A stretch of 19,817 nucleotides of DNA, taken from contig DBXZ01000047.1 in the NCBI GenBank assembly GCA_002309795.1, forward strand, positions 1 through 19,817, in the 5' to 3' direction. Below, in pieces: positions 4,720 through 16,068 of this stretch (its first letter is position 1; each line of letters opens with the position of its first letter). Under the pieces are notes generated by a model. The model made no database searches, was not told where the DNA came from, and worked only from the letters and a program-made list of their open reading frames with translations. Source of the stretch: Bacteroidales bacterium UBA1199. Lineage in GTDB: Bacteria > Bacteroidota > Bacteroidia > Bacteroidales > UBA932. A program made the translations under genes and the position numbers.

Positions 4720-6797
4720 TGATCGATCCAGCCAAAGAACTCGCGGTGCCAGTGCACGGAGTTCTGCGGTTTCAGAATCCAGTGGTTCTCATCCGGGAAG
4801 AGCACCATCTTGGAGGGGACGCCCATCATCTGGGCGGTATTGAAGGCTGCCATGCCCTGGTCCACCGGCACGCGGTAGTCCAGTTCGCCGTGCATCACGA
4901 GAATCGGGGTGTTCCAGTTCTTCGCGAGCTTGTGGGCGGAGTTGGCGTAGTGGCGGACGGCTGCGGGAGTCTTGCTCCACGGCGAGCCGGCCATATAGGT
5001 CTTCGGATCCTTGCATCCGCCGTTGTCCCAGTTGGGGAACCACATCTCCTCGGTCTCCATGAACATGTGTTCCTGGTTGTAGATGCCCGCATGGGCGATC
5101 AGGGCCGAGAAGCGGTTCTGGTGGATGCCGGCCAGGTAATAGACGGAATAGCCGCCGTAGCTGGCACCCGCCGCGCACATCTTGCCTACGTAAGGCTCGG
5201 CGAGCAGGGCGTCGGCTGCAGCCAGGTAATCCTTCATGTTCTGGCCGATATAGTCACCGGAAATCTGTTCGCACCAATCCTGACCGAACGCGGTGGTTCC
5301 GCGACGGTTCGGCAGGACCACGATATAGCCCTGCGATGCCATCAGACGGTAGTTCCAGCGGGTGGACCAGCCCTGCGTGATGGCGCCCTGCGGACCGCCC
5401 AGGCAGATCAGGACGGACGGATAGACTTTGGCCGGGTCGAACTGCGGCGGATAGACCACCCAGGTCAGCATCTTCTTACCGTCGGTGGTGCGGATCCAGC
5501 GCTGCTCCATCGTAACGGGAGCGAGCTGCTCGAGAATCCAGTCGTTTTCGTGCGTCAGCGGCGCCCAGCTGCCGTCTGCCAGCGAGACCCTGACGATCTC
5601 CGCGGGACGCAGCATCGAGCAGTTGGTGGCCAGCAGCGTACCCTCTTCGAAGAGGCTGATGCTGTTGAAATCCACCCAGTCGCCGCGCGTCACCTTGGTG
5701 CAGTTTCCGGCAGCGAGGTCTGCGAAGCAGATCTCCTTGAGGCCTTCCATTTCCGAGGTGAACCAGAGGCCGGTGGATTCGGCATTCCAGAGCAGGCCGC
5801 CGGCATTGTACTTGAAGGCTGCCGTCAGCTCGCGCTTGCCGCTGCCGTCGGCGTTCATCACGAAGAGGCGCACCTTGTCGGCCTCATAGCCGTCGCGCTC
5901 CATGCTCAGCCAGGCAATCTTGCTGCCGTCGGGCGAGAAGAGCGGATCGGTGTCGTAGCCCATCATTCCCTCGGTCAGGTTGCGGCATTCGCCGGTGGCA
6001 ATCTCGTAGAGGAAGATGTCGGTATTGGTGGAGAAGGCGTATTCGCGGCCCGTCAGCTTGCGGCACGAATAGGCGATATAGCGGCCGTCCGGGCTGAAAT
6101 CGAGCTGTTCGATCCCGCTGAACGGTTCGGTGGGCAGTTCAAAGGGCTCGCCGCCGAGCAGGTCCTTCCCCTCGCCCAGCTTGTTGCCGTCGAAGGAGGC
6201 CAGCCAGGTATGCTGGATGTTCTCCACGAAATGGTCCCAGTGGCGGTACATCATCCCCGTGATGGTGCGGGCCGTGGACTTCGGGATGTCCGGATAGATG
6301 TCGGCAGCTTTGGGCGCAACCTTGAAGTCGCTCACATAGAGCACGCTCTTCTCGTCAGGCGAGAGCTTGAATTCGCCGATTCCGTCGGGAACGTCGCTCA
6401 CCTGGCGCGCACCGCGGCCCTCGGCGTCGGCAACCCAGATCTGGCCTTTATGCAGGTAGGCGATCTTCTTGCCGCCGTCTATCCAGCGGGCGTTGGACTT
6501 GCTGCCTGCGGAACGGGTAATCTGGTGGTTGTCTGTGCCGTCCGCATTCATCACGAAGAGTTCGCGGTTGCCCTTGTTCTCTTCGATGGAGGTGTAGGTT
6601 ACTCCGTAGAGAATCTTGCCGGTTGCTTCGCAGTACTGCGGGTCACCCACCTTGCCCAGCTGGTGCATGATTTCCGGGGTGAACTGACCGTCCACCACGG
6701 GAATGTCGTGTTTCTCAATCAAAACGGGAGTTTCGGCTTTCGGGGCGCAGGAAAAAGTTGCTGCCATAGCCATAAAAAATGCTGCTATTCTTTTCAT
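4707..6797 (-). CDS. Secreted S9 family serine peptidase, DPP5/acylaminoacyl-peptidase-like (696 aa)
   Basis: Alpha/beta-hydrolase peptidase of the prolyl oligopeptidase clan, likely releasing dipeptides or acylated N-termini from peptides in the periplasm. The N-terminus has a short basic/hydrophobic signal ending in ATFSCAPK, so it may be a lipoprotein anchored at Cys17, though the lipobox is weak. A beta-propeller with repeated FSPDG-type blades (LSPDEKS, FSPDGRYIA, FSPDGSKIA) fills about 40-420. The C-terminal catalytic domain holds Ser546 in GASYGGYS, Asp640 in HGELDYRVP and His672 in DENHW, a complete triad. The order and spacing resemble Porphyromonas DPP5-type enzymes. Its ATG overlaps the TGA of the upstream S9 gene (ATGA), and it overlaps rmuC by 13 bp. 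Confidence 0.93.
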   Translation of the reverse strand: MKRIAAFFMAMAATFSCAPKAETPVLIEKHDIPVVDGQFTPEIMHQLGKVGDPQYCEATGKILYGVTYTSIEENKGNRELFVMNADGTDNHQITRSAGSKSNARWIDGGKKIAYLHKGQIWVADAEGRGARQVSDVPDGIGEFKLSPDEKSVLYVSDFKVAPKAADIYPDIPKSTARTITGMMYRHWDHFVENIQHTWLASFDGNKLGEGKDLLGGEPFELPTEPFSGIEQLDFSPDGRYIAYSCRKLTGREYAFSTNTDIFLYEIATGECRNLTEGMMGYDTDPLFSPDGSKIAWLSMERDGYEADKVRLFVMNADGSGKRELTAAFKYNAGGLLWNAESTGLWFTSEMEGLKEICFADLAAGNCTKVTRGDWVDFNSISLFEEGTLLATNCSMLRPAEIVRVSLADGSWAPLTHENDWILEQLAPVTMEQRWIRTTDGKKMLTWVVYPPQFDPAKVYPSVLICLGGPQGAITQGWSTRWNYRLMASQGYIVVLPNRRGTTAFGQDWCEQISGDYIGQNMKDYLAAADALLAEPYVGKMCAAGASYGGYSVYYLAGIHQNRFSALIAHAGIYNQEHMFMETEEMWFPNWDNGGCKDPKTYMAGSPWSKTPAAVRHYANSAHKLAKNWNTPILVMHGELDYRVPVDQGMAAFNTAQMMGVPSKMVLFPDENHWILKPQNSVHWHREFFGWIDQWCR

Positions 6798-9652
6798 AAT
6801 GATTCGTTATCGTCAAATCCAAAACCGTAATCGATACCCTTGTGGGTTGCGGGCACGCCGCGGGACATCCAGACGGGCATCGGGGCGCCCTTCAGGAAGT
6901 GGTCGAAGAACTGCTGCAGGCGGACGCTGAGGTCCTTGCGGTTGCGGCGTTCCTTGAGGTTGTGGGCCTCGTCGTTGTACTGGAGCATCCACGCCTGCTT
7001 GCCGCAGCGGCGCAGCGCGTTGAAGAATTCGATACCCTGCCACCACGGCACCGCGCCGTCCTGGTCGTTGTGCATGATCAGCACCGGGGTGGTGACGTTC
7101 GGCACGAAGAAGAGCGGGGAGTTCTCCACATAGAGGTCGAAGCCCTCCCAGAGGTCCTTGCCGATCCGGCTCTGTCCCTTTTCGTACTGTGCCGTGCGGG
7201 CCATGCCGCTCTCCCAGCGGATGCCGCCGTAAGCGGAGGTCATGTTGCTGACCGGTGCGCCGGCGCCCGCCGCTGCGAAACGGTTCGTCTGGGTAATCAG
7301 GTAAGCGGTCTGGTAGCCGCCCCAGCTCTGGCCCTGGATGCCGATATGGTCGCCGTCCACCCACGGGTACTCGCAGAGCATGTCCACGCCCGGCATCAGG
7401 AAGTTCATACAGCTCTTGCCCGGATGGCCGTCCTTGTAGCGCAGATCCGGCACGAATACGATGTAGCCGTTGCTCACGAAGAACGGAATATTGACCGTGG
7501 AGGCCGACGGAGACGGGATACGGGGAGAGTAAAGCGTCTCGGAGTAGCGTTCGTAGAAGTAGCAGATCACCGGGTATTTCTTTGCGGGATTGAAATCCTC
7601 CGGCTTGTAGAGCAGGCCTTCCGCCGGGGTGCCGTCCCAGGCCGTCCATTTGACCAGCTCCACGGTGCCCCAGTTATAGGCTTTCAGCTGCTCGCCGGTA
7701 TTGGTGAGCTTCTCCTGTTTCTTGAAGTTGTCGCGGGCAATCCAGATGTCGCTGCCCTCCTCGAAGTTGCCGCGGATGAACACTGCCGCCGGCTTGCGGC
7801 CGGTGCTGACAGCCAGGGACTGGTAGACGTAGGGGCCTTTGGCGAGGTTCTCCACCTTGGCCTTGCGGCGGGTAATATCGAGCCGGGCGATGCCGTTCTC
7901 CTTGGTCACTTCGTCGAAGGTGGTGAACCAGACCGGACGGTCGGTGAAGATCATGCCGCCGCGCGGCACGCGGATGTCGGTGCGGTTGTAGGGCATGGTC
8001 ACGCTGTAGGTGAGACGGTTCTCGCGGCCGAAGGTCTTGCGGACGGGAGCGGCGGCTCCGGTCGGGTCGATCTGCCACCAGTCGTACCGGTCGCGGATCC
8101 AGAAATACTTGCTGTCTTCGCTCCAGACGGCGCCTGCGTAAGCCCCCGGGAATGCCGGATGGTCATCCTCTTCATCGTAGAAAGCGTTGCCGATCGTGGA
8201 AGAGACTTCGCGGATCGTTCCCGCAGCGATATCGATCACATACCAGTTGCCGTCCTTTTCGTTGAAGCTGGCGGCATAGGCTCCGTCGGGAGATTCCTGG
8301 GCATAGGAGAGCGGAGATTCCTTCTCAATCAGCGTGCGTTTGCCGTTGCGCAGGTCAATCTGGTAAATATCGGAGCAGGCAGAATAATCCCACTGCCGCT
8401 GGATGCGGTACGGTTTGTCGTCGGCCACCATCACATAGTCGCCCTTGTATCCTTCGGGAATTTCCACGCTCTGCATTATCTCGTCTGCGAGCTGCACGAA
8501 GCTTTTGCCGTCATAACCGATCTTGGCCAGGTAGGTGCGGCCCTTTTCGTGGGAGAGGCGGTTGTTCTGGATGGTCTGGATATAATCCTCGTTCCAGACC
8601 CAGATGTCGAGTTTCGCCTGCTCGAAGTCCACCAGCGTGGTGTCTTTCTCGGGCGGAACCGGACGTGTGCCGAGCGTCAGATAGCCGTCGTAGAAGCGGA
8701 TGTCCGCACTCTGACCCAGTTCCCAGCCCCGGGCAAGGACGGATGCCTTGTGGGTCAGCAGCAAGGTGGGCTCGCCCCCGTTGTAGAGGTAGAGATCCTG
8801 CTGCTTGGCGGCATCTTTGGCGGTGTCGAGCGAAGCGTAGAACGCAATCCGGCCGCCCTCTTTTTCAAAGAAGAAATTGCCGAAGGAGGCCTTCTTCTCA
8901 CCGGTCAGCACCGGGGTGGAGGTCCTGGTGGCGGGATCGTACACGAAGAGGCCGCGCACGGTCACGGAATCCTTCTTGTCCGGTTTGGTGACGTACGCCA
9001 GGCGGTTGCCGGCGTGGTCGAACTTGAACGAATCCACACTCTTCAGCGTATCGATCACCATCGTCCTGATGTTGAGGACATAGAGGTTGTTCTTTACGGA
9101 AGGCTTCTCGGGTTTCTTGTCCCCGTTTTCGGGTTTTTCACCTTTCTCGGGCTTCTCGCCGTTCTTCCCCGGCTTAGCGGGAGCGGCTTTCACCTCTTCT
9201 TCCTTGAAGGCGATCCATTCGCCCAGATTCTCACCGCTCTTGAAGTTGGTGACGTTGGCGAACTCCCTGGCCTCACCGGTCTTGAGGTCCATCACGGCAA
9301 TCGAGCCTTTGGGACGCTCGTCAGGTTTCTTCTTGTCGATCTTGGCCTGGCGGGTCTCCTTGAAAGGCGGGGTGATGCGGTACACGGCCTTGGTTCCGTC
9401 GGCGCTGATCATGGCGCGGGAGGCGCGCTCAGCCGTGAAGGTCTTGCCGGTCTTTACATTATAAAGATACAGCATGCCGTCGCCCTCCTGGGGAGAGACG
9501 GCATAGACTGCCCATTCGCTGCCCTCCTGGATCACGGGGCGGTTGACGGATTTCCAACCGTCGTAGACGGAGTGGTCCAGTGCGGGCTTCTGGGCCCACA
9601 GAACCGCCGTGCTCAGCAGCAGCGTCAGGCAAAGGAGAAAGGAACGTTTCAT
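6794..9652 (-). CDS. Large secreted S9 family prolyl oligopeptidase (952 aa)
   Basis: Second S9 peptidase of the operon, larger than its neighbour and of a different subfamily. The chosen start gives a clear type I signal peptide (MKRSFLLCLTLLLSTAVLWA, cleavage before Gln21). An ATG 24 bp upstream at 9676 would add eight residues and sits 2 bp after the exporter's stop; either could be used. A propeller-type region fills about 30-670, interrupted at 156-184 by a Lys/Glu/Pro-rich linker. The catalytic domain has Ser776 in GQSWGGYQ, Asp865 in HNDQDGAVPW and His897 in NDEAHNL. The frame stays open upstream through the exporter gene in another register, but only the signal-peptide start makes sense. 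Periplasmic peptide hydrolysis is likely; substrate unknown. Confidence 0.92.
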   Translation of the reverse strand: MKRSFLLCLTLLLSTAVLWAQKPALDHSVYDGWKSVNRPVIQEGSEWAVYAVSPQEGDGMLYLYNVKTGKTFTAERASRAMISADGTKAVYRITPPFKETRQAKIDKKKPDERPKGSIAVMDLKTGEAREFANVTNFKSGENLGEWIAFKEEEVKAAPAKPGKNGEKPEKGEKPENGDKKPEKPSVKNNLYVLNIRTMVIDTLKSVDSFKFDHAGNRLAYVTKPDKKDSVTVRGLFVYDPATRTSTPVLTGEKKASFGNFFFEKEGGRIAFYASLDTAKDAAKQQDLYLYNGGEPTLLLTHKASVLARGWELGQSADIRFYDGYLTLGTRPVPPEKDTTLVDFEQAKLDIWVWNEDYIQTIQNNRLSHEKGRTYLAKIGYDGKSFVQLADEIMQSVEIPEGYKGDYVMVADDKPYRIQRQWDYSACSDIYQIDLRNGKRTLIEKESPLSYAQESPDGAYAASFNEKDGNWYVIDIAAGTIREVSSTIGNAFYDEEDDHPAFPGAYAGAVWSEDSKYFWIRDRYDWWQIDPTGAAAPVRKTFGRENRLTYSVTMPYNRTDIRVPRGGMIFTDRPVWFTTFDEVTKENGIARLDITRRKAKVENLAKGPYVYQSLAVSTGRKPAAVFIRGNFEEGSDIWIARDNFKKQEKLTNTGEQLKAYNWGTVELVKWTAWDGTPAEGLLYKPEDFNPAKKYPVICYFYERYSETLYSPRIPSPSASTVNIPFFVSNGYIVFVPDLRYKDGHPGKSCMNFLMPGVDMLCEYPWVDGDHIGIQGQSWGGYQTAYLITQTNRFAAAGAGAPVSNMTSAYGGIRWESGMARTAQYEKGQSRIGKDLWEGFDLYVENSPLFFVPNVTTPVLIMHNDQDGAVPWWQGIEFFNALRRCGKQAWMLQYNDEAHNLKERRNRKDLSVRLQQFFDHFLKGAPMPVWMSRGVPATHKGIDYGFGFDDNESL

Positions 9653-10994: not shown

Positions 10995-11012
10995 ATACAT
11001 AGAATTATGTAT
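10995..11012 (+). promoter_or_regulatory. Palindromic operator ATACATA-N4-TATGTAT (site 1)
   Basis: A perfect 7-bp inverted repeat, ATACATA GAAT TATGTAT, is directly joined to the -33 region of the plus-strand promoter. It ends 22 bp before the -7 element. The same arms, spacer length and distance recur upstream of the sensor-kinase gene at 16051-16068. The position suits an activator touching RNA polymerase. The LuxR-type regulator encoded nearby is the obvious candidate, by inference. Confidence 0.7.
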
Positions 11013-11042
11013 TGTCCGCCCTTGTCGGAGGAGGTAACTTTG
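11011..11042 (+). promoter_or_regulatory. Bacteroidetes-type promoter for the peptide-lipoprotein operon
   Basis: The -7 element TAACTTTG (11035-11042) matches TAnnTTTG. ATTG (11011-11014), a near match to TTTG, lies 20 bp upstream and overlaps the end of the palindrome. The predicted start is near 11048, giving a leader of about 35-40 nt before the small gene. Confidence 0.7.
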
Positions 11043-11086
11043 CACAGCTGAAAAAATGCTTTGCAAATACCTAATTCTTAATGTAT

Positions 11087-11209
11087 ATGGAAAACAAAAA
11101 AGACTATGCAGCACCGATGATCAAACTGTTCGAGGTGCGGCCGCAACAGGTACTCTGCCTTTCCGCTCCGGACTTCAGAGACGGTGGTGATATCCCTTAC
11201 AACGACTAG
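11087..11209 (+). CDS. Small 40-aa protein of unknown function preceding a lipoprotein gene
   Basis: The frame encodes MENKKDYAAPMIKLFEVRPQ and continues QVLCLSAPDFRDGGDIPYND. An in-frame ATG at 11081 would add Met-Tyr. It resembles the many short Bacteroidales proteins I know of that begin with a basic stretch, a Y-x-AP motif and an amphipathic V/L segment, then L-C/A-x-S and a Gly/Asp-rich tail, and that often precede surface lipoprotein genes. No function is established. There is no signal peptide or membrane helix. It lies just downstream of a good promoter, and its stop codon is embedded in a strong Shine-Dalgarno sequence for the next gene, arguing for real translation and coupling. Confidence 0.7.
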   Translation: MENKKDYAAPMIKLFEVRPQQVLCLSAPDFRDGGDIPYND

Positions 11210-11213
11210 GAGG
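11208..11213 (+). promoter_or_regulatory. Strong Shine-Dalgarno sequence before the lipoprotein gene
   Basis: AGGAGG lies 8 bp before the ATG at 11222 and shares bases with the TAG stop of the small gene. Bacteroidetes rarely use such sites, and no other start in this window has one outside upstream coding sequence. It fixes the lipoprotein start and suggests coupled translation. Confidence 0.75.
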
Positions 11214-11221
11214 AAAAGACC

Positions 11222-13522
11222 ATGAAGAAAACCATTATCCTTTTGGCGGCCGTCGCCGCCCTTGCGCTTGTTTCCTGCCAGCCGAAAGAGCAATTCGGAG
11301 GTACCGGTTCTGAAAATCCCCAGGGCGTCCTGATGAGCCTCACGGCCAGCCTGGGTGACGCTACCCGTACGAATTATGAACTGGAAGGCAATGTCCTCAA
11401 ATGCACCTGGACCCTCGGCGACAGCGTCTCCGTCGTGTCGTTCAACGCAAACAGCAGCACGGCGACCGTTCGCAGCATCGACAACTTCGCCCTCAAGTCC
11501 GGTGACGGCTCCGCGAGCGGTGTGTTCGAAGGCTACTTCACCGGTGGGGATGCTGAACGTATCCTCGTGTTCTACCCGGTTCTCCAGCCGGTGGAAATGG
11601 ATCCGGACCTGGATATCCCGAATCCGGACGGTTACTGGGCATCCCGTCCCTTCAACGGTCGTACCGACCGCATCGACGTGGCCCGCGCCATCTATGGCGT
11701 CAAGAAAGGAACGGAGTATGTCCATTTTGACAATCAGCGTTATCCGTATGTAACCAGTAGCGGCGACCTGACTCCGGTCCGCGAGCGCAACGTCATCTTC
11801 GGAAACGCTCAGATTGTTGAGGTGAATGCGTACACGCATACCCTCAATGCCACGATGCAGAACCTTTATTCGGTCATCAAGCTGACGGCAGTCCTTCCTT
11901 CCGGCCTCACCGCTTCCGACGTGATCCAGAGAATTCGTCTGGAAACTTCTGCCGGCCTTTCTTTCGGTCCGAACGGCAACTGGGGATACCTGGCCGATCC
12001 TACGATGGTCCTCACCAAAAACACCGATTATCTGGATGTTTACTTCGGCAATATGAATCCGAGCGAGGGAACCTCCACCGGCATAAACCTTCCGGTCGAC
12101 CGCACGCTGGTCTGCTATATGGTCGCTTCCATCAAGGACCAGCCCGCTTCCACTACCTGGACGGTGACCGCTTATCATGAGAACGGCGATAAATATACGA
12201 AGACCATCACCCTGCCGTCGCTCACCTCTTTCGAGGCCGGCAAGATGTACCGCCTGACGGTCAACCTCGAGGGTACGGCTTCCCCCACGCCGCCCGCAGC
12301 TACCAACCTGAGCCCGATGAACCATACGGCCAACTGCTACGTGGTGGCTTCCGACACGCCGGGCATCTACAAGATCAAGAACTGCAAGGGAACCGATTTC
12401 AATTATCTGAACTCTACCGCCGTTTCAGCGGAGGTGCTCTGGGAGTCCCGGGCCAACGGCATGAATGTTCCTTCGGTTGGTGACATCATCGACGTTTCCG
12501 ACCCGGCCATCACGAACGGCATCGGCATCTACGACGACGGCTACGTCTATTTCAAGACCACCGGCGCCCGGGGCAATGCCCTGATCGCCGTCAAGGACGG
12601 CTCCGGGAACATCCTCTGGAGCTGGCATATCTGGTGCACGGGCGCTTCGTTCGACCCGACGACGGATTACCACGATGCAGACACCTACTACTTGATGAAA
12701 GTAAACCTCGGCGGCTTCAGCTACGATTACATGACCGGCGACAGCAACGGAGTGGGCAGCACGGAAACCGCAGGCCTGCTCTACCAGTTCGGCCGCAAGG
12801 ATCCGTTCCGCGGCGTCAAGAACCTCTATGCGGACAACGATCCGGTTCAGATTTACACCACCAATTCCGGCAACTGGAATTATGTCGAGAGCACCGTCGC
12901 GACCGGCACCGTGGCTTACGCGCACGCTCACCCGATGACCTACATCAAACCGAACCGCAACGGCGGCTATGGCAACATGGACTGGGTCTATACGGAAGGG
13001 GAAGAGCTGCAAGCCCGTGACCGCTGGAGCAGCAGCAATGACGATCCCTGCCCGTATGGATGGACCGTGATGGGCAGCTACAACGATATCCTTGGATGGG
13101 AAAAATCGGACTATATCCTGAATACCGACAAATATGCCGGCGTCAATTTCTTCCATGCAGATTTTCCTCACGGCAATGTTGACGCGTACTTCCCGTATGC
13201 CGGTTATATTGATGAGGATGGGAACGGTATTGTTCAGCAGTATTACGACTATCGTGGATATGGATACTACGATTACTTCCGTTACGCGGGCTTCTATTGG
13301 ACCACGAGCGGCGGAACCACCAAGTATCGCCAGTTTATGCGCATCCAGGACAGAAAGGCATACGACAACCCCTCCACGATGAACGAAGCAGATGACAACA
13401 AAGCTCCTATCGTCGAAATTATGCACACATACAATAGCGTCGATTGGGGTGTCTATATATGGGGACCGCAGATTGGTTGTGGCAATGCCATGTCGGTACG
13501 CTGCATGAAGATCAACAACTAA
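11222..13522 (+). CDS. Surface lipoprotein with fimbrillin-like N-terminus and FISUMP-type C-terminus (766 aa)
   Basis: Predicted outer-membrane lipoprotein: signal MKKTIILLAAVAALALVSC, with lipobox LVSC and Cys19 as the acylated residue. The next ~340 residues resemble Bacteroidales fimbrillin-family proteins (SLGDATRTNYELEGNVLKCT, WTLGDSVSVV, then LTSFEAGKMYRLTVNLEG). A Pro/Thr linker at about 350-360 leads to a FISUMP-like C-terminal half: NHTANCYVVASDTPGIYKIK, VLWES, GNALIAVKDGSGNILWSWHI, GLLYQFGRKDPFRG, DDPCPYGWTVMG and the terminal AMSVRCMKINN. A tyrosine-rich run at about 671-690 sits in the region before FYWTTSGG. No enzymatic motif was seen. Adhesion, glycan binding or self-assembly are possible. 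It is the second gene of the operon and ends at a strong terminator. Confidence 0.85.
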   Translation: MKKTIILLAAVAALALVSCQPKEQFGGTGSENPQGVLMSLTASLGDATRTNYELEGNVLKCTWTLGDSVSVVSFNANSSTATVRSIDNFALKSGDGSASGVFEGYFTGGDAERILVFYPVLQPVEMDPDLDIPNPDGYWASRPFNGRTDRIDVARAIYGVKKGTEYVHFDNQRYPYVTSSGDLTPVRERNVIFGNAQIVEVNAYTHTLNATMQNLYSVIKLTAVLPSGLTASDVIQRIRLETSAGLSFGPNGNWGYLADPTMVLTKNTDYLDVYFGNMNPSEGTSTGINLPVDRTLVCYMVASIKDQPASTTWTVTAYHENGDKYTKTITLPSLTSFEAGKMYRLTVNLEGTASPTPPAATNLSPMNHTANCYVVASDTPGIYKIKNCKGTDFNYLNSTAVSAEVLWESRANGMNVPSVGDIIDVSDPAITNGIGIYDDGYVYFKTTGARGNALIAVKDGSGNILWSWHIWCTGASFDPTTDYHDADTYYLMKVNLGGFSYDYMTGDSNGVGSTETAGLLYQFGRKDPFRGVKNLYADNDPVQIYTTNSGNWNYVESTVATGTVAYAHAHPMTYIKPNRNGGYGNMDWVYTEGEELQARDRWSSSNDDPCPYGWTVMGSYNDILGWEKSDYILNTDKYAGVNFFHADFPHGNVDAYFPYAGYIDEDGNGIVQQYYDYRGYGYYDYFRYAGFYWTTSGGTTKYRQFMRIQDRKAYDNPSTMNEADDNKAPIVEIMHTYNSVDWGVYIWGPQIGCGNAMSVRCMKINN

Positions 13523-13541
13523 TGCACTCCGCAGACAACAG

Positions 13542-13573
13542 GAAGGGCGACCGCAAGGCCGCCCTTCTTTTTT
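13542..13573 (+). terminator. Intrinsic terminator of the peptide-lipoprotein operon
   Basis: The arms GAAGGGCG-a-CC and GG-c-CGCCCTTC (11 positions, one mismatch) enclose a GCAA tetraloop and are followed by six Ts. It starts 19 bp after the lipoprotein stop. The minus-strand side has no T-run, so it should act mainly on plus-strand transcripts, although the response-regulator gene converges on it. Confidence 0.9.
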
Positions 13574-13589
13574 GCTTCACGCAATAAAA

Positions 13590-14234
13590 CTAAAGGGTGA
13601 TGAGTTCCTTCTTGATGGCGTAGAGCACCAGCTCCACCGTGTTGTTGATGCCGAGCTTGCGGAAGATATTGTTCTTGATGGTGACCACCGTCAGGTACTT
13701 GATGCCCAGCTGGCCGGCGATTTCCTTGTATTGCAGGCCCTTGCAGCTGAGGCGGATGACATCCAGCTCCCGCGGTGTGAAAAGGCTGTCGGAGGCCTTC
13801 TTGGCAAAACTGATGCGCTCGATGAGCCGGGCGATGTCGGTGCCGAAAAATTCATAGCCGGCGGCGACGCTGCGGATGGCGGATAGCATCGTCTGCTTGT
13901 CGCTGCCTTTGGAGAGAAAACCGTCGATGCCGATATTCAGCAGTGGCTCCAGCGTGGCCAGCGAAGTGTCGCTCGAAAGTACCAGAAGCGACACATCGGG
14001 CATCTCGGCCCGCATCCGCCGCGCCAGTTCGATACCGTCCATGCCGGGCATCATAATGTCGAGCAGCATGACATTCGGAAGGGGGTTCATGGAAGCGAGC
14101 ATGGCGAGCGCCTTGGCTCCGTCCGCCGCCGTCCCGACGATCTCGATGTCGGTCTGCCCTTCCAGCATGGCCCGGATACCCATCAGCATCAGCGGATGGT
14201 CGTCAACCAATAGGATGCGGATCGGATCAGCCAT
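13590..14234 (-). CDS. LuxR/NarL-family response regulator
   Basis: Two-component response regulator of 214 residues, with start MADPIRILLVDDHP. An in-frame ATG at 14252 is possible but would lie deeper inside the kinase gene. The receiver domain (about 4-120) has acidic residues Asp11/Asp12, phospho-acceptor Asp59 in MLLDIMMPGMDG, Ser87 and Lys109 in FLSKG. The output domain (about 150-210) is a LuxR-type helix-turn-helix (LFTPRELDVIRLSCKGLQYK, then EIAGQLGIKYLTVVTIKNNI), the class that binds short inverted repeats. Its start overlaps the kinase stop by 8 bp, so the pair is co-transcribed and probably coupled. The operator ATACATA-N4-TATGTAT before its own operon and before the peptide-lipoprotein operon is the likely target, by inference. 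Confidence 0.95.
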   Translation of the reverse strand: MADPIRILLVDDHPLMLMGIRAMLEGQTDIEIVGTAADGAKALAMLASMNPLPNVMLLDIMMPGMDGIELARRMRAEMPDVSLLVLSSDTSLATLEPLLNIGIDGFLSKGSDKQTMLSAIRSVAAGYEFFGTDIARLIERISFAKKASDSLFTPRELDVIRLSCKGLQYKEIAGQLGIKYLTVVTIKNNIFRKLGINNTVELVLYAIKKELITL

Positions 14235-16014
14235 TTTCAGGAGTGTTGACAATCAAGATGGTAAAGACGCTGCCGCTGCCCTCTCCGCTCTCCACGAGAA
14301 GTTTGCCGCCGCTCTCCTCAATCAGGTCGCGGCTGACCGCCAGCCCGAGTCCGTTGCTGGGCTCGCCGTCGGTGCCGGCGCGGCGCCAGGGGGAGTCTGA
14401 ACTGAAGATCTGGGGCAATTTGTCCTGCGGAATCCCGACGCCGTGATCAACCACTGAAACGGCGGCGCCCTCCGCGTTCGGCTCAATCCGAACCAGGACG
14501 TCACCGCCTCGATAGGAGAACTTGACGGCATTCGAAAGCAGGTTGCGCAGTACAAGCGCCAGATTATTGCGGTTGGTGCAGACGGAGACCTCTTTCGGGG
14601 ATTCCAGCGAGAGGTGGATCTCCTTGAGTTCGGCTGCACCGGCATATTGCGTAAGGGTTTCGCGGACCAGTTCGGGGAGAGAGAAACGCACGGATTCGGT
14701 GGCCCCGTTGCCCACTTTGCGTTTGGCCCAGCGAAGAACGTTTTCAATCAGTTCCACTTCGGATTCCGCCTGCCGCTCCAGCTGTAGGAAAACCTCGTTC
14801 ATCTGTTCGGGGGAGAGAGAGGCTACGCTTTCGCGGATCATCTGAATCCCGCGCAACTGCGCCACGGCCGGGGAGTGGATATCGTGGGAAATAACCTTCA
14901 GCAGGAAGTCTTTCTGGGCGTTGCTCTGTCGGAGACGCCGTTCGCTGCGGTGCTGCCTGACGGCGAAGATGACGGTGACGCAGGCGGCCGCAATCAGCAG
15001 CAGGAGAAGAATCAGAAGGATATCCCGTTGGAGCCGTTTTTGGGCGATATCTTCCTGCTGGGCGGCGATGGTTGCTTCCCTCCGGGCGGTTTCATACTCT
15101 ACATTGAACAGTTCGAGCGCATTGTTGCGTTTGCTGTCCGCGATTTCTTCCTGAAGACGGGCCGCCTCTTCCAGATAACCATAGGCTTCCGCCGGATGGC
15201 TCTCGCGCAGCGAAGCGGCCAGGCGGCTGCAGATCTTTTGCAGCAGCGGCTGGTCATTTAACGCCCGCGCGATGGAAGCTGCTTCTTGCAAATATTTCTG
15301 TTCCAGTGTCTTGGAGCCACCTTTCCGCCCATATTCCTGGGCCAGCTGGAAACAGACGATGGCGAGGGATTGCCGGGCGTCATTGTCCCGGAAAACATCC
15401 TCGGAAAAGCGGAGGTCAGCGAGCGCCGCCTCGTGCCGGCCTAATGCACTGAGCGGATAGGCCCGCTGGCTCCTCCGGATAGCTTGTCCAAGACGGTTGT
15501 TCTGTTGCTGTGCAATCGCTACGGCCCGGTCTGCGAAGTGAAGCGCGGTGCTGTCCGCCCCAAGGGCATGATAGACGTCGCAGGCCTTTCCGTAGGCCAT
15601 GGCCAGCTTGTCCGGGCGGTCCAGCAACTGCTCGTTGGCGATGGCCTCCAGGGCATAATCGAGCGCCAGTTCCGGCTCCCCGGCATAGACATACATCGAT
15701 GCCAGGTTGATTAGCGAAGAGGTCAATCCCTTCTGCTCGCCCTGCGCCTTGTCGTAGCGGTAGCAGCGGATCATATACTCCGCCGCCTTGTCGAAAGCCC
15801 CGAGCCGCGCGTAGCAGCTGCCCAGAATGGACCAGAACTCCACGGCCTGCTCCTCCGTGATGCCGCTCTGCGAAGCCCCCTCCTGCGCCACGCGGATGGC
15901 CTCCGGGTAACGGTTCGCGTAATAGAGCTCTTCCGCCTCGGCATACCAATCCCGTGCGGTGCTGTTCAAAGCGCCGGCAAGAAACATCAGGGTTATGACG
16001 AGAAACTTTCGCAT
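14227..16014 (-). CDS. Sensor histidine kinase with periplasmic TPR domain
   Basis: Membrane sensor kinase of 595 residues. The signal peptide MRKFLVITLMFLAGALNSTA leads into a periplasmic, mostly helical domain of tetratricopeptide-type repeats (about 22-300), then a coiled region, one membrane helix (about 332-352) and the cytoplasmic kinase. The H-box is FLLKVISHDIHSPAVAQL with phospho-acceptor His377. ATP-binding motifs are NLLSNAVKFS (491-500), DHGVGIP (523-529) and SNGLGLAV (553-560). An in-frame ATG at 16056 exists, but it falls inside the palindromic operator and upstream of the promoter -7 box, so 16014 is preferred. The -7 box ends 6 bp before this ATG, implying a nearly leaderless transcript. 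The ligand of the TPR domain is unknown. Confidence 0.93.
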   Translation of the reverse strand: MRKFLVITLMFLAGALNSTARDWYAEAEELYYANRYPEAIRVAQEGASQSGITEEQAVEFWSILGSCYARLGAFDKAAEYMIRCYRYDKAQGEQKGLTSSLINLASMYVYAGEPELALDYALEAIANEQLLDRPDKLAMAYGKACDVYHALGADSTALHFADRAVAIAQQQNNRLGQAIRRSQRAYPLSALGRHEAALADLRFSEDVFRDNDARQSLAIVCFQLAQEYGRKGGSKTLEQKYLQEAASIARALNDQPLLQKICSRLAASLRESHPAEAYGYLEEAARLQEEIADSKRNNALELFNVEYETARREATIAAQQEDIAQKRLQRDILLILLLLLIAAACVTVIFAVRQHRSERRLRQSNAQKDFLLKVISHDIHSPAVAQLRGIQMIRESVASLSPEQMNEVFLQLERQAESEVELIENVLRWAKRKVGNGATESVRFSLPELVRETLTQYAGAAELKEIHLSLESPKEVSVCTNRNNLALVLRNLLSNAVKFSYRGGDVLVRIEPNAEGAAVSVVDHGVGIPQDKLPQIFSSDSPWRRAGTDGEPSNGLGLAVSRDLIEESGGKLLVESGEGSGSVFTILIVNTPENG

Positions 16015-16020
16015 ACCCTG

Positions 16021-16028
16021 CAAAAATA
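16021..16028 (-). promoter_or_regulatory. Promoter -7 element of the two-component operon
   Basis: TATTTTTG on the minus strand matches TAnnTTTG and is followed by six bases and then the kinase ATG. The base quartet at the -33 position is ATCG, a poor match to TTTG, which fits a promoter that needs the activator bound at the adjoining palindrome. Confidence 0.65.
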
Positions 16029-16050
16029 CACAGAAAAACCCGGAAAGGCG

Positions 16051-16068
16051 ATACATAATAATATGTAT
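16051..16068 (-). promoter_or_regulatory. Palindromic operator ATACATA-N4-TATGTAT (site 2)
   Basis: The arms ATACATA and TATGTAT are separated by four bases and extend to 8 bp with the flanking G/C pair. The gap to the -7 element is 22 bp, identical to site 1 at 10995-11012. It suggests autoregulation of the kinase-regulator operon. It could in addition fold in the gcvP transcript, since it lies 13 bp past the gcvP stop. Confidence 0.7.

Follow-up and report, generated by a model that had tools for sequence, protein, structure and literature searches.

A probable autoregulated two-component switch of FimS/FimR type with a nearly private palindromic operator in uncultured Bacteroidales

The stretch of 19,817 nucleotides (nt) at positions 1-19,817 of contig DBXZ01000047.1 of Bacteroidales bacterium UBA1199 (assembly GCA_002309795.1), here referred to as the window, encodes a sensor histidine kinase with a response regulator and, on the opposite strand, a small peptide with a large lipoprotein; the outer neighbours of these four genes are ThrE and GcvP. 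The same palindrome, ATACATA-N4-TATGTAT, stands upstream of both gene pairs (Table 1), and we consider it the probable operator of a switch that controls itself and the peptide-lipoprotein operon. The kinase and regulator genes have an 8-nt overlap at the start of the regulator, and the kinase shows a transmembrane stretch and an SHDIHSP H-box when read from the sequence. In Pfam, its HATPase_c domain scores 77.1 bits (cut-off 26.4), while TPR models match below their own cut-offs (best 28.3 bits); the best NCBIfam match is HK_Porph_FimS, whose cut-off of 600 bits is not reached at 227 bits. The regulator passes the Pfam cut-offs for both its receiver (90.7 bits versus 30.2) and its GerE domain (49.2 versus 23.5). 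The kinase most likely starts at 16014 rather than at the ATG at 16056 within the palindrome, which is the start given in the list of open reading frames (ORFs).

Table 1. Features of the window, and sites heading other genes at three related loci (positions counted within the window or, where named, within the locus).
Feature	Position	Strand	Description
Operator 1	10995..11012		ATACATA-GAAT-TATGTAT, upstream of the peptide-lipoprotein operon (pattern match)
-33-like element	11012..11014	+	TTG, 20 base pairs (bp) before the -7 box, one base in common with operator 1
-7 box	11035..11042	+	TAACTTTG, 22 bp past operator 1, TAnnTTTG consensus
Small peptide	11087..11209	+	40 amino acids (aa), MENKKDYAAPMIKLFEVRPQQVLCLSAPDFRDGGDIPYND; stop codon overlaps AGGAGG ahead of the lipoprotein
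Lipoprotein	11222..13522	+	766 aa, signal peptide with LVSC, predicted N-terminal fimbrillin-type fold (residues about 34-354)
Response regulator	13590..14234	-	214 aa, receiver and GerE (LuxR/NarL) helix-turn-helix; recognition-helix region KYLTVVTIKNNIFRKLGINN
Sensor histidine kinase	14227..16014	-	595 aa, signal/anchor, TPR sensor part, transmembrane stretch, SHDIHSP H-box, HATPase
-7 box	16021..16028	-	TATTTTTG, 22 bp past operator 2, 6 nt ahead of the kinase ATG
Operator 2	16051..16068		ATACATA-ATAA-TATGTAT (plus-strand reading), upstream of the kinase-regulator pair (pattern match)
Swapped-target site	L003 10903
Swapped-target sites	L005 4925, 7114		one mismatch at 7114
Swapped-target sites	L006 3390, 5592		one mismatch at 5592

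Pattern scanning of the whole window found two exact palindromes and, with up to three mismatches allowed, no further copy; the expectation is 0.07 matches, and two copies arose together in 0 of 200 shuffles. A preliminary description of this DNA had likewise seen two full copies without a third and had put the expectation well under one in 20 kilobases. Its observation that the distance to the -7 box is the same 22 bp at both promoters also holds: a TAnnTTTG box (TAACTTTG and TATTTTTG) lies at this distance from each palindrome on the strand of the gene that it faces, and PMC7366714 cites this motif as the -7 consensus that the main sigma factor of Bacteroidetes recognises. Of the imperfect -33 boxes that had been described for both promoters, the one at the plus-strand peptide promoter stands as a TTG, but there is no TTG at the corresponding place of the minus-strand kinase promoter in the window.

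We scanned related genomes by kinase alignment, taking one genome per species, and obtained 25 loci, 21 of which come from Bacteroidales-type metagenome-assembled genomes and were retained (loci carry L and genomes G numbers); L022-L025 from Halomonas/Vreelandella (24-26% identity) were distant ATPase matches and were dropped as unrelated. Ten of the 21 genomes carry a ruminant host designation, and genome names in RUG and RUI presumably denote rumen sets. The region upstream of the kinase can be read at 20 loci (L006 begins inside the gene), and there the palindrome is exact in 15 and has a single mismatch in another two (L004, L005), which bears out the conservation in relatives that the preliminary description had proposed to check. 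Its arms stay fixed while the spacers vary (ttat, tatt, taat, tttt, gtat, aatt, aaaa), and kinase identity over the best segment is 50-98% at loci with the site and 43% at L021. At L002, the kinase operator (9947, minus) is additionally found 20 bp from TATATTTG, upstream of a divergent gene, perhaps under its control, with a product starting MRRREFLKLSAA, by eye a Tat-like start.

The placement of the palindrome was tabulated for 45 promoter orientations by taking the best box at 19-25 bp for each, leaving out L002 9947 minus and L004 334 minus (box at 20 bp) as well as L005 7114 plus and L006 5592 plus (box at 17 bp). All 18 kinase promoters have exact boxes, 15 at 22 bp and three at 21 bp, and the best box of the 14 peptide-lipoprotein promoters is always at 22 bp (exact in eight); 13 other promoters, chosen for having a box, carry it at 22 bp with one exception at 23 bp. 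The palindrome is followed by TG at none of the 18 kinase promoters, by T at all 14 peptide promoters (eight TG, six TT) and by TG at nine of the 13 others. Target promoters thus tend to have a -33 element in whole or in part, whereas kinase promoters are without one. In 17 of the 18 kinase promoters only 3-6 nt separate the -7 box from the start codon of the kinase (a GTG in L009 and L014), and in L017 the distance is 12 nt, so that a nearly leaderless kinase mRNA is predicted as a conserved trait (window 16012-16028). Leaders shorter than 10 nt are rare in Bacteroides thetaiotaomicron, at about 3.7%, and the examples include two-component kinases (PMC7366714). When 21 paralogous FimS-like kinase loci (L058-L078) were checked for an operator of their own, no comparable arrangement was found, with start codons being uncertain in this set; two loci gave no kinase ORF under the rule applied, a TAnnTTTG box was present within the stretch inspected at four of the other 19 (L058, L069, L077, L078), and the only palindrome of the sought kind among these 19, at L058, is a poly-T/poly-A run.

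The palindrome is also rare beyond these promoters. Across the 21 carrier genomes we counted 25 exact copies in 19 genomes (none in two, one in 13, two in six), and all 25 are located either on the same contig as the kinase locus or upstream of a peptide-lipoprotein gene, which is the opposite of the genome-wide scatter that the preliminary description had named as speaking against its own proposal. G001, a near relative of the window with a 98% identical kinase, has exactly two exact sites. The backward-read control pattern has no match in the 21 genomes. A composite pattern with up to three mismatches also returned three-mismatch matches without clear sense and three control matches in two genomes, and sites were accepted only up to two mismatches; additional inexact sites are those at G007:C79 (one mismatch), G010:C57 and G021:C40 (two each).

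In a sample of 299 genomes of the family, the exact palindrome occurs in eight, namely G001, G002, G016 and five others (copies with the same first 60 bases being listed once), compared to four of 299 for the backward-read control. The five others have eight copies, and none of those listed has TAnnTTTG at 19-25 bp; four of the eight are in the non-carrier G293 (L047, L052, L053, L054), lie near contig ends and are probably a repeat. A kinase orthologue (E<1e-280) is present only in G001, G002 and G016, with paralogues in 14 other genomes (best E 1e-62 to 1e-110). Lipoprotein matches at E<1e-90 are confined to the same three genomes (full length in G002, positions 1-652 of 734 in G016, split across two contigs in G001), and shorter matches, down to 1e-40, were found in 24 others. 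The exact palindrome together with a -7 box at 19-25 bp is thus present in all three family genomes that carry the kinase orthologue and absent from the 296 that do not. An overlap of this kind has a chance probability (hypergeometric) of 1.3e-5 with the bare palindrome and of 2e-7 with palindrome plus box. These three genomes were already known carriers, so what the family sample itself adds is the absence from the remaining 296.

Gene order around the site varies. In 13 of the 21 related genomes, as in the window, a peptide-lipoprotein pair is headed by the site (with one mismatch in G009, otherwise exact). At eight loci (L011-L016, L018, L019) the kinase and a divergent peptide gene have only one palindrome in the interval between them, with -7 boxes 22 bp away on both sides, some of them degenerate, while the window, G001, G002, G004, G009 and G010 have separate sites for the two promoters and the contig of G008 ends short of the target side. 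Two tandem peptide-lipoprotein modules, in which each lipoprotein has its own peptide, lie behind one operator at L015 (347-3678, minus) and L018 (5521-8939, minus). At L003, L005 and L006, which form a sister lineage, the sites lead a beta-flower (PF21785) or TMEM43-family (PF07787) gene, as called by Pfam for L003 and L005 and by likeness for L006, and at L007, L017 and L020 they head other secreted or lipoprotein-like genes. Sensor, regulator and operator are kept together while their outputs change between lineages.

Regulators of the LuxR/NarL class bind short inverted repeats. The recognition-helix region, LTVVTIKNNIFRKLGINN, does not differ between the window and the 19 orthologues where it is readable, L014 being cut off and L010 (2931-3566) having an in-frame stop directly ahead of this region that may reflect assembly error or decay. 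L021, where the palindrome is missing, reads QTVGTIKKNIFKKLGINN instead, and the paralogue regulators at the 17 loci listed (of 21 searched) have TVxxHKxxIF where TVVTIKNNIF is found here. Such a pairing of helix and palindrome is what one would expect of a regulator and its own site.

Site, placement, conservation, rarity in carriers, linkage to both sets of genes and pairing with one recognition helix were all computed, and we consider it likely that they reflect an autoregulated FimS/FimR-like switch whose regulator activates the peptide and the lipoprotein with its predicted fimbrillin fold at the palindrome. The TPR domain of the kinase, outside the inner membrane, would sense a signal and the kinase would phosphorylate the regulator, a dimer of which would bind ATACATA-N4-TATGTAT with half-sites 11 bp apart, about one turn of DNA. 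With its end 22 bp ahead of the -7 box, the palindrome covers roughly -35 to -52 and adjoins the -33 element, and the bound regulator would activate both its own kinase promoter and the promoter of the peptide and a presumably surface-displayed lipoprotein. Without a TTG at -33 the kinase promoter should depend on the activator, and the peptide-lipoprotein promoter with its TTG may have more basal activity. The picture drawn in the preliminary description, an autoregulated TPR kinase and LuxR regulator acting on a lipoprotein and its small companion, gains support from this analysis: the site is neither scattered over the carrier genomes nor lost in most relatives, and the predicted autoregulation and co-control of lipoprotein plus peptide recur in other gene orders.

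Activators typically sit beside the polymerase, with LuxR- and CRP-type sites near -42. This activator-like position together with the absence of a -33 TTG at the kinase promoter favours positive autoregulation. The same regulator could instead repress both promoters from the same sites until phosphorylation releases or remodels it, given that the palindrome lies right beside the -33 region and, at the peptide promoter, has one base in common with the TTG, so that a bound dimer could block polymerase. We regard this as unlikely, though, because all 18 kinase promoters lack TG at -33 as expected of activator-dependent promoters, the site is positioned like those of activators adjoining polymerase, and the nearest studied regulator, FimR, is an activator (PMC1974823). 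That a different DNA-binding protein co-controls both operons through the palindrome seems very improbable. Binding by the neighbouring regulator is, to be sure, deduced from sequence, but a regulator encoded elsewhere would need to have only one or two exact sites, at this locus or its targets, and to lose them together with the locus: the promoter-placed exact site is absent from all 296 family genomes without a kinase orthologue, and the recognition helix tracks the site. Chance, or a structural feature of AT-rich promoters devoid of regulatory meaning, can hardly be taken seriously: bare palindromes do occur in five of 296 non-carrier genomes, and the control pattern has matches in four of 299, but the arms are kept while spacer and flanks change, tabulated sites keep 21-23 bp to the -7 box, and the expectation in the window as well as the counts in carrier genomes and the family disfavour it.

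Several observations weigh against an activating switch tied to this lipoprotein. The site is absent from L021, the most distant orthologue, and not found directly upstream of the kinase at L007 and L020, the nearest one at L020 having two mismatches; at both of these loci the kinase is downstream of same-strand genes headed by the site (exact at L007) and may therefore be regulated together with them in an operon. The -7 box is degenerate in six of the 14 peptide promoters (one mismatch in five, two in one), and the site stands at other genes at six loci (L003, L005, L006, L007, L017, L020), so the lipoprotein is not a fixed member of the regulon. Some loci are close relatives (L011-L013, L008/L015, L001/window), and the counts are therefore not independent but represent fewer independent events than rows. 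Finally, the family searches scored only the best few candidates of a first look at each genome (among the rows listed, up to four for the kinase and three for the lipoprotein), and the absence counts rest on genomes of unstated completeness.

Turning to the controlled genes, the peptide most likely starts at 11087, with another in-frame ATG at 11081. Thirteen related genomes have a similar peptide in the corresponding position, and among the 11 sequences aligned the N-terminal half is conserved and leader-like while the tail is variable. It has no match in Pfam or NCBIfam up to an E-value of 0.1, and a database search returned 175 proteins at E<=0.01 that, among the best 120 of these, are named only "hypothetical". 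The peptide family is multi-copy with two to nine matches per genome in 11 of the 12 carrier genomes tried (of 21), and it has matches at E<=1e-4 in 26 of 99 family genomes. A credible peptide was recognised at 26 of 29 loci examined (from L136-L184), and in 25 of these 26 cases a gene follows within about 150 nt; by eye, all 25 downstream genes open with a signal-like start and have a cysteine, and 20 were flagged by a stricter script rule. Peptide and lipoprotein thus look like a general, recurrent gene pair in Bacteroidales. The overlap of peptide stop and AGGAGG falls within 11201-11224 of the window, and GGAGG within 18 nt of the lipoprotein start also occurs at L027, L002, L036, L009, L015, L018 and L019 but not at L016. 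Shine-Dalgarno sequences are said to be absent from the Bacteroidetes phylum (PMC6847099), so an AGGAGG at the peptide stop makes translational coupling to the lipoprotein possible. The lipoprotein signal peptide reads MKKTIILLAAVAALALVSC, and C19 is invariant across 23 aligned sequences. A structure model predicts the two-domain beta fold of fimbrillins for the N-terminal ~320 residues; the lipoprotein has no match to a Pfam fimbrillin family, the only hit being SH3_6 below threshold. It has a second, C-terminal part, and one orthologue matches PF09603 just under the cut-off. We think it improbable, if worth stating, that the co-made peptide is a signal, or an export or processing companion, that reports lipoprotein production or assembly to the periplasmic TPR sensor in a self-sensing loop.

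FimR of Porphyromonas gingivalis is a LuxR-type regulator, and a gene for a regulator of this type likewise lies beside the window kinase with the overlap noted above. The preliminary description knew of no described system of this make-up, but FimS/FimR is a precedent: a periplasmic TPR kinase and partner regulator that control fimbrillin genes, those of the fimA and mfa1 fimbriae (PMC11053733, PMC1974823). FimR acts directly on the mfa1 promoter and on fimA via the first gene of the cluster (PMC1974823), and the shared operator ahead of the window lipoprotein would be consistent with such direct promoter control. A polypeptide has been proposed as the FimS signal (PMC11053733), and FimX is needed for normal fimA transcription and was not detected as a protein (PMC3436787). 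In contrast to FimS/FimR, the window has no fimX-pgmA-fimA-E-like cluster by gene content (FimX was not compared by sequence), its target is one peptide with one large lipoprotein, and it has a defined, nearly private operator that is also present at its own promoter. Since the kinase also remains far under the FimS cut-off, we call the system FimSR-like in the sense that it works like, but is not, FimS. A search for true FimS (E<=1e-150) in 393 genomes of the order gave no match, and neither did the control genomes, so the result has no bearing on its absence.

The lipoprotein shares its signal peptide and predicted fimbrillin fold with the type V fimbrillins and their relatives (FimA, Mfa1-4, BF1858/BF1861), but differs by its length, its C-terminal part, the lack of a Pfam fimbrillin match and the lack of assembly genes seen beside it. 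The regulator resembles other LuxR/NarL regulators in its domains and is set apart by its 7-4-7 ATACATA repeat and its helix. No operator, binding site or autoregulation of FimR was found in the open-access literature, with the subscription papers Nishikawa 2004 and Nishikawa and Duncan 2010 outside this scope, and no report connecting a fimbrillin with LuxR plus TPR or with small peptides turned up there. New here are the defined and nearly private operator, the peptide-lipoprotein target and the swapped targets in sister lineages.

The analysis provides a system of FimS/FimR type with a precise operator and a small predicted regulon, with at most two exact sites, and in some cases none, in a carrier genome; one unit of sensor, regulator and operator is retained across lineages that have swapped the genes under its control. 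The analysis further points to a recurrent pair of small peptide and lipoprotein in Bacteroidales, with a peptide that could be matched to no family here and that would, if it reports to the sensor, be the first candidate ligand for any FimS-type sensor. What emerges is an apparently self-contained switch, present in a group of uncultured bacteria of which many come from the guts of ruminants, that is related to the control of fimbriae in P. gingivalis.

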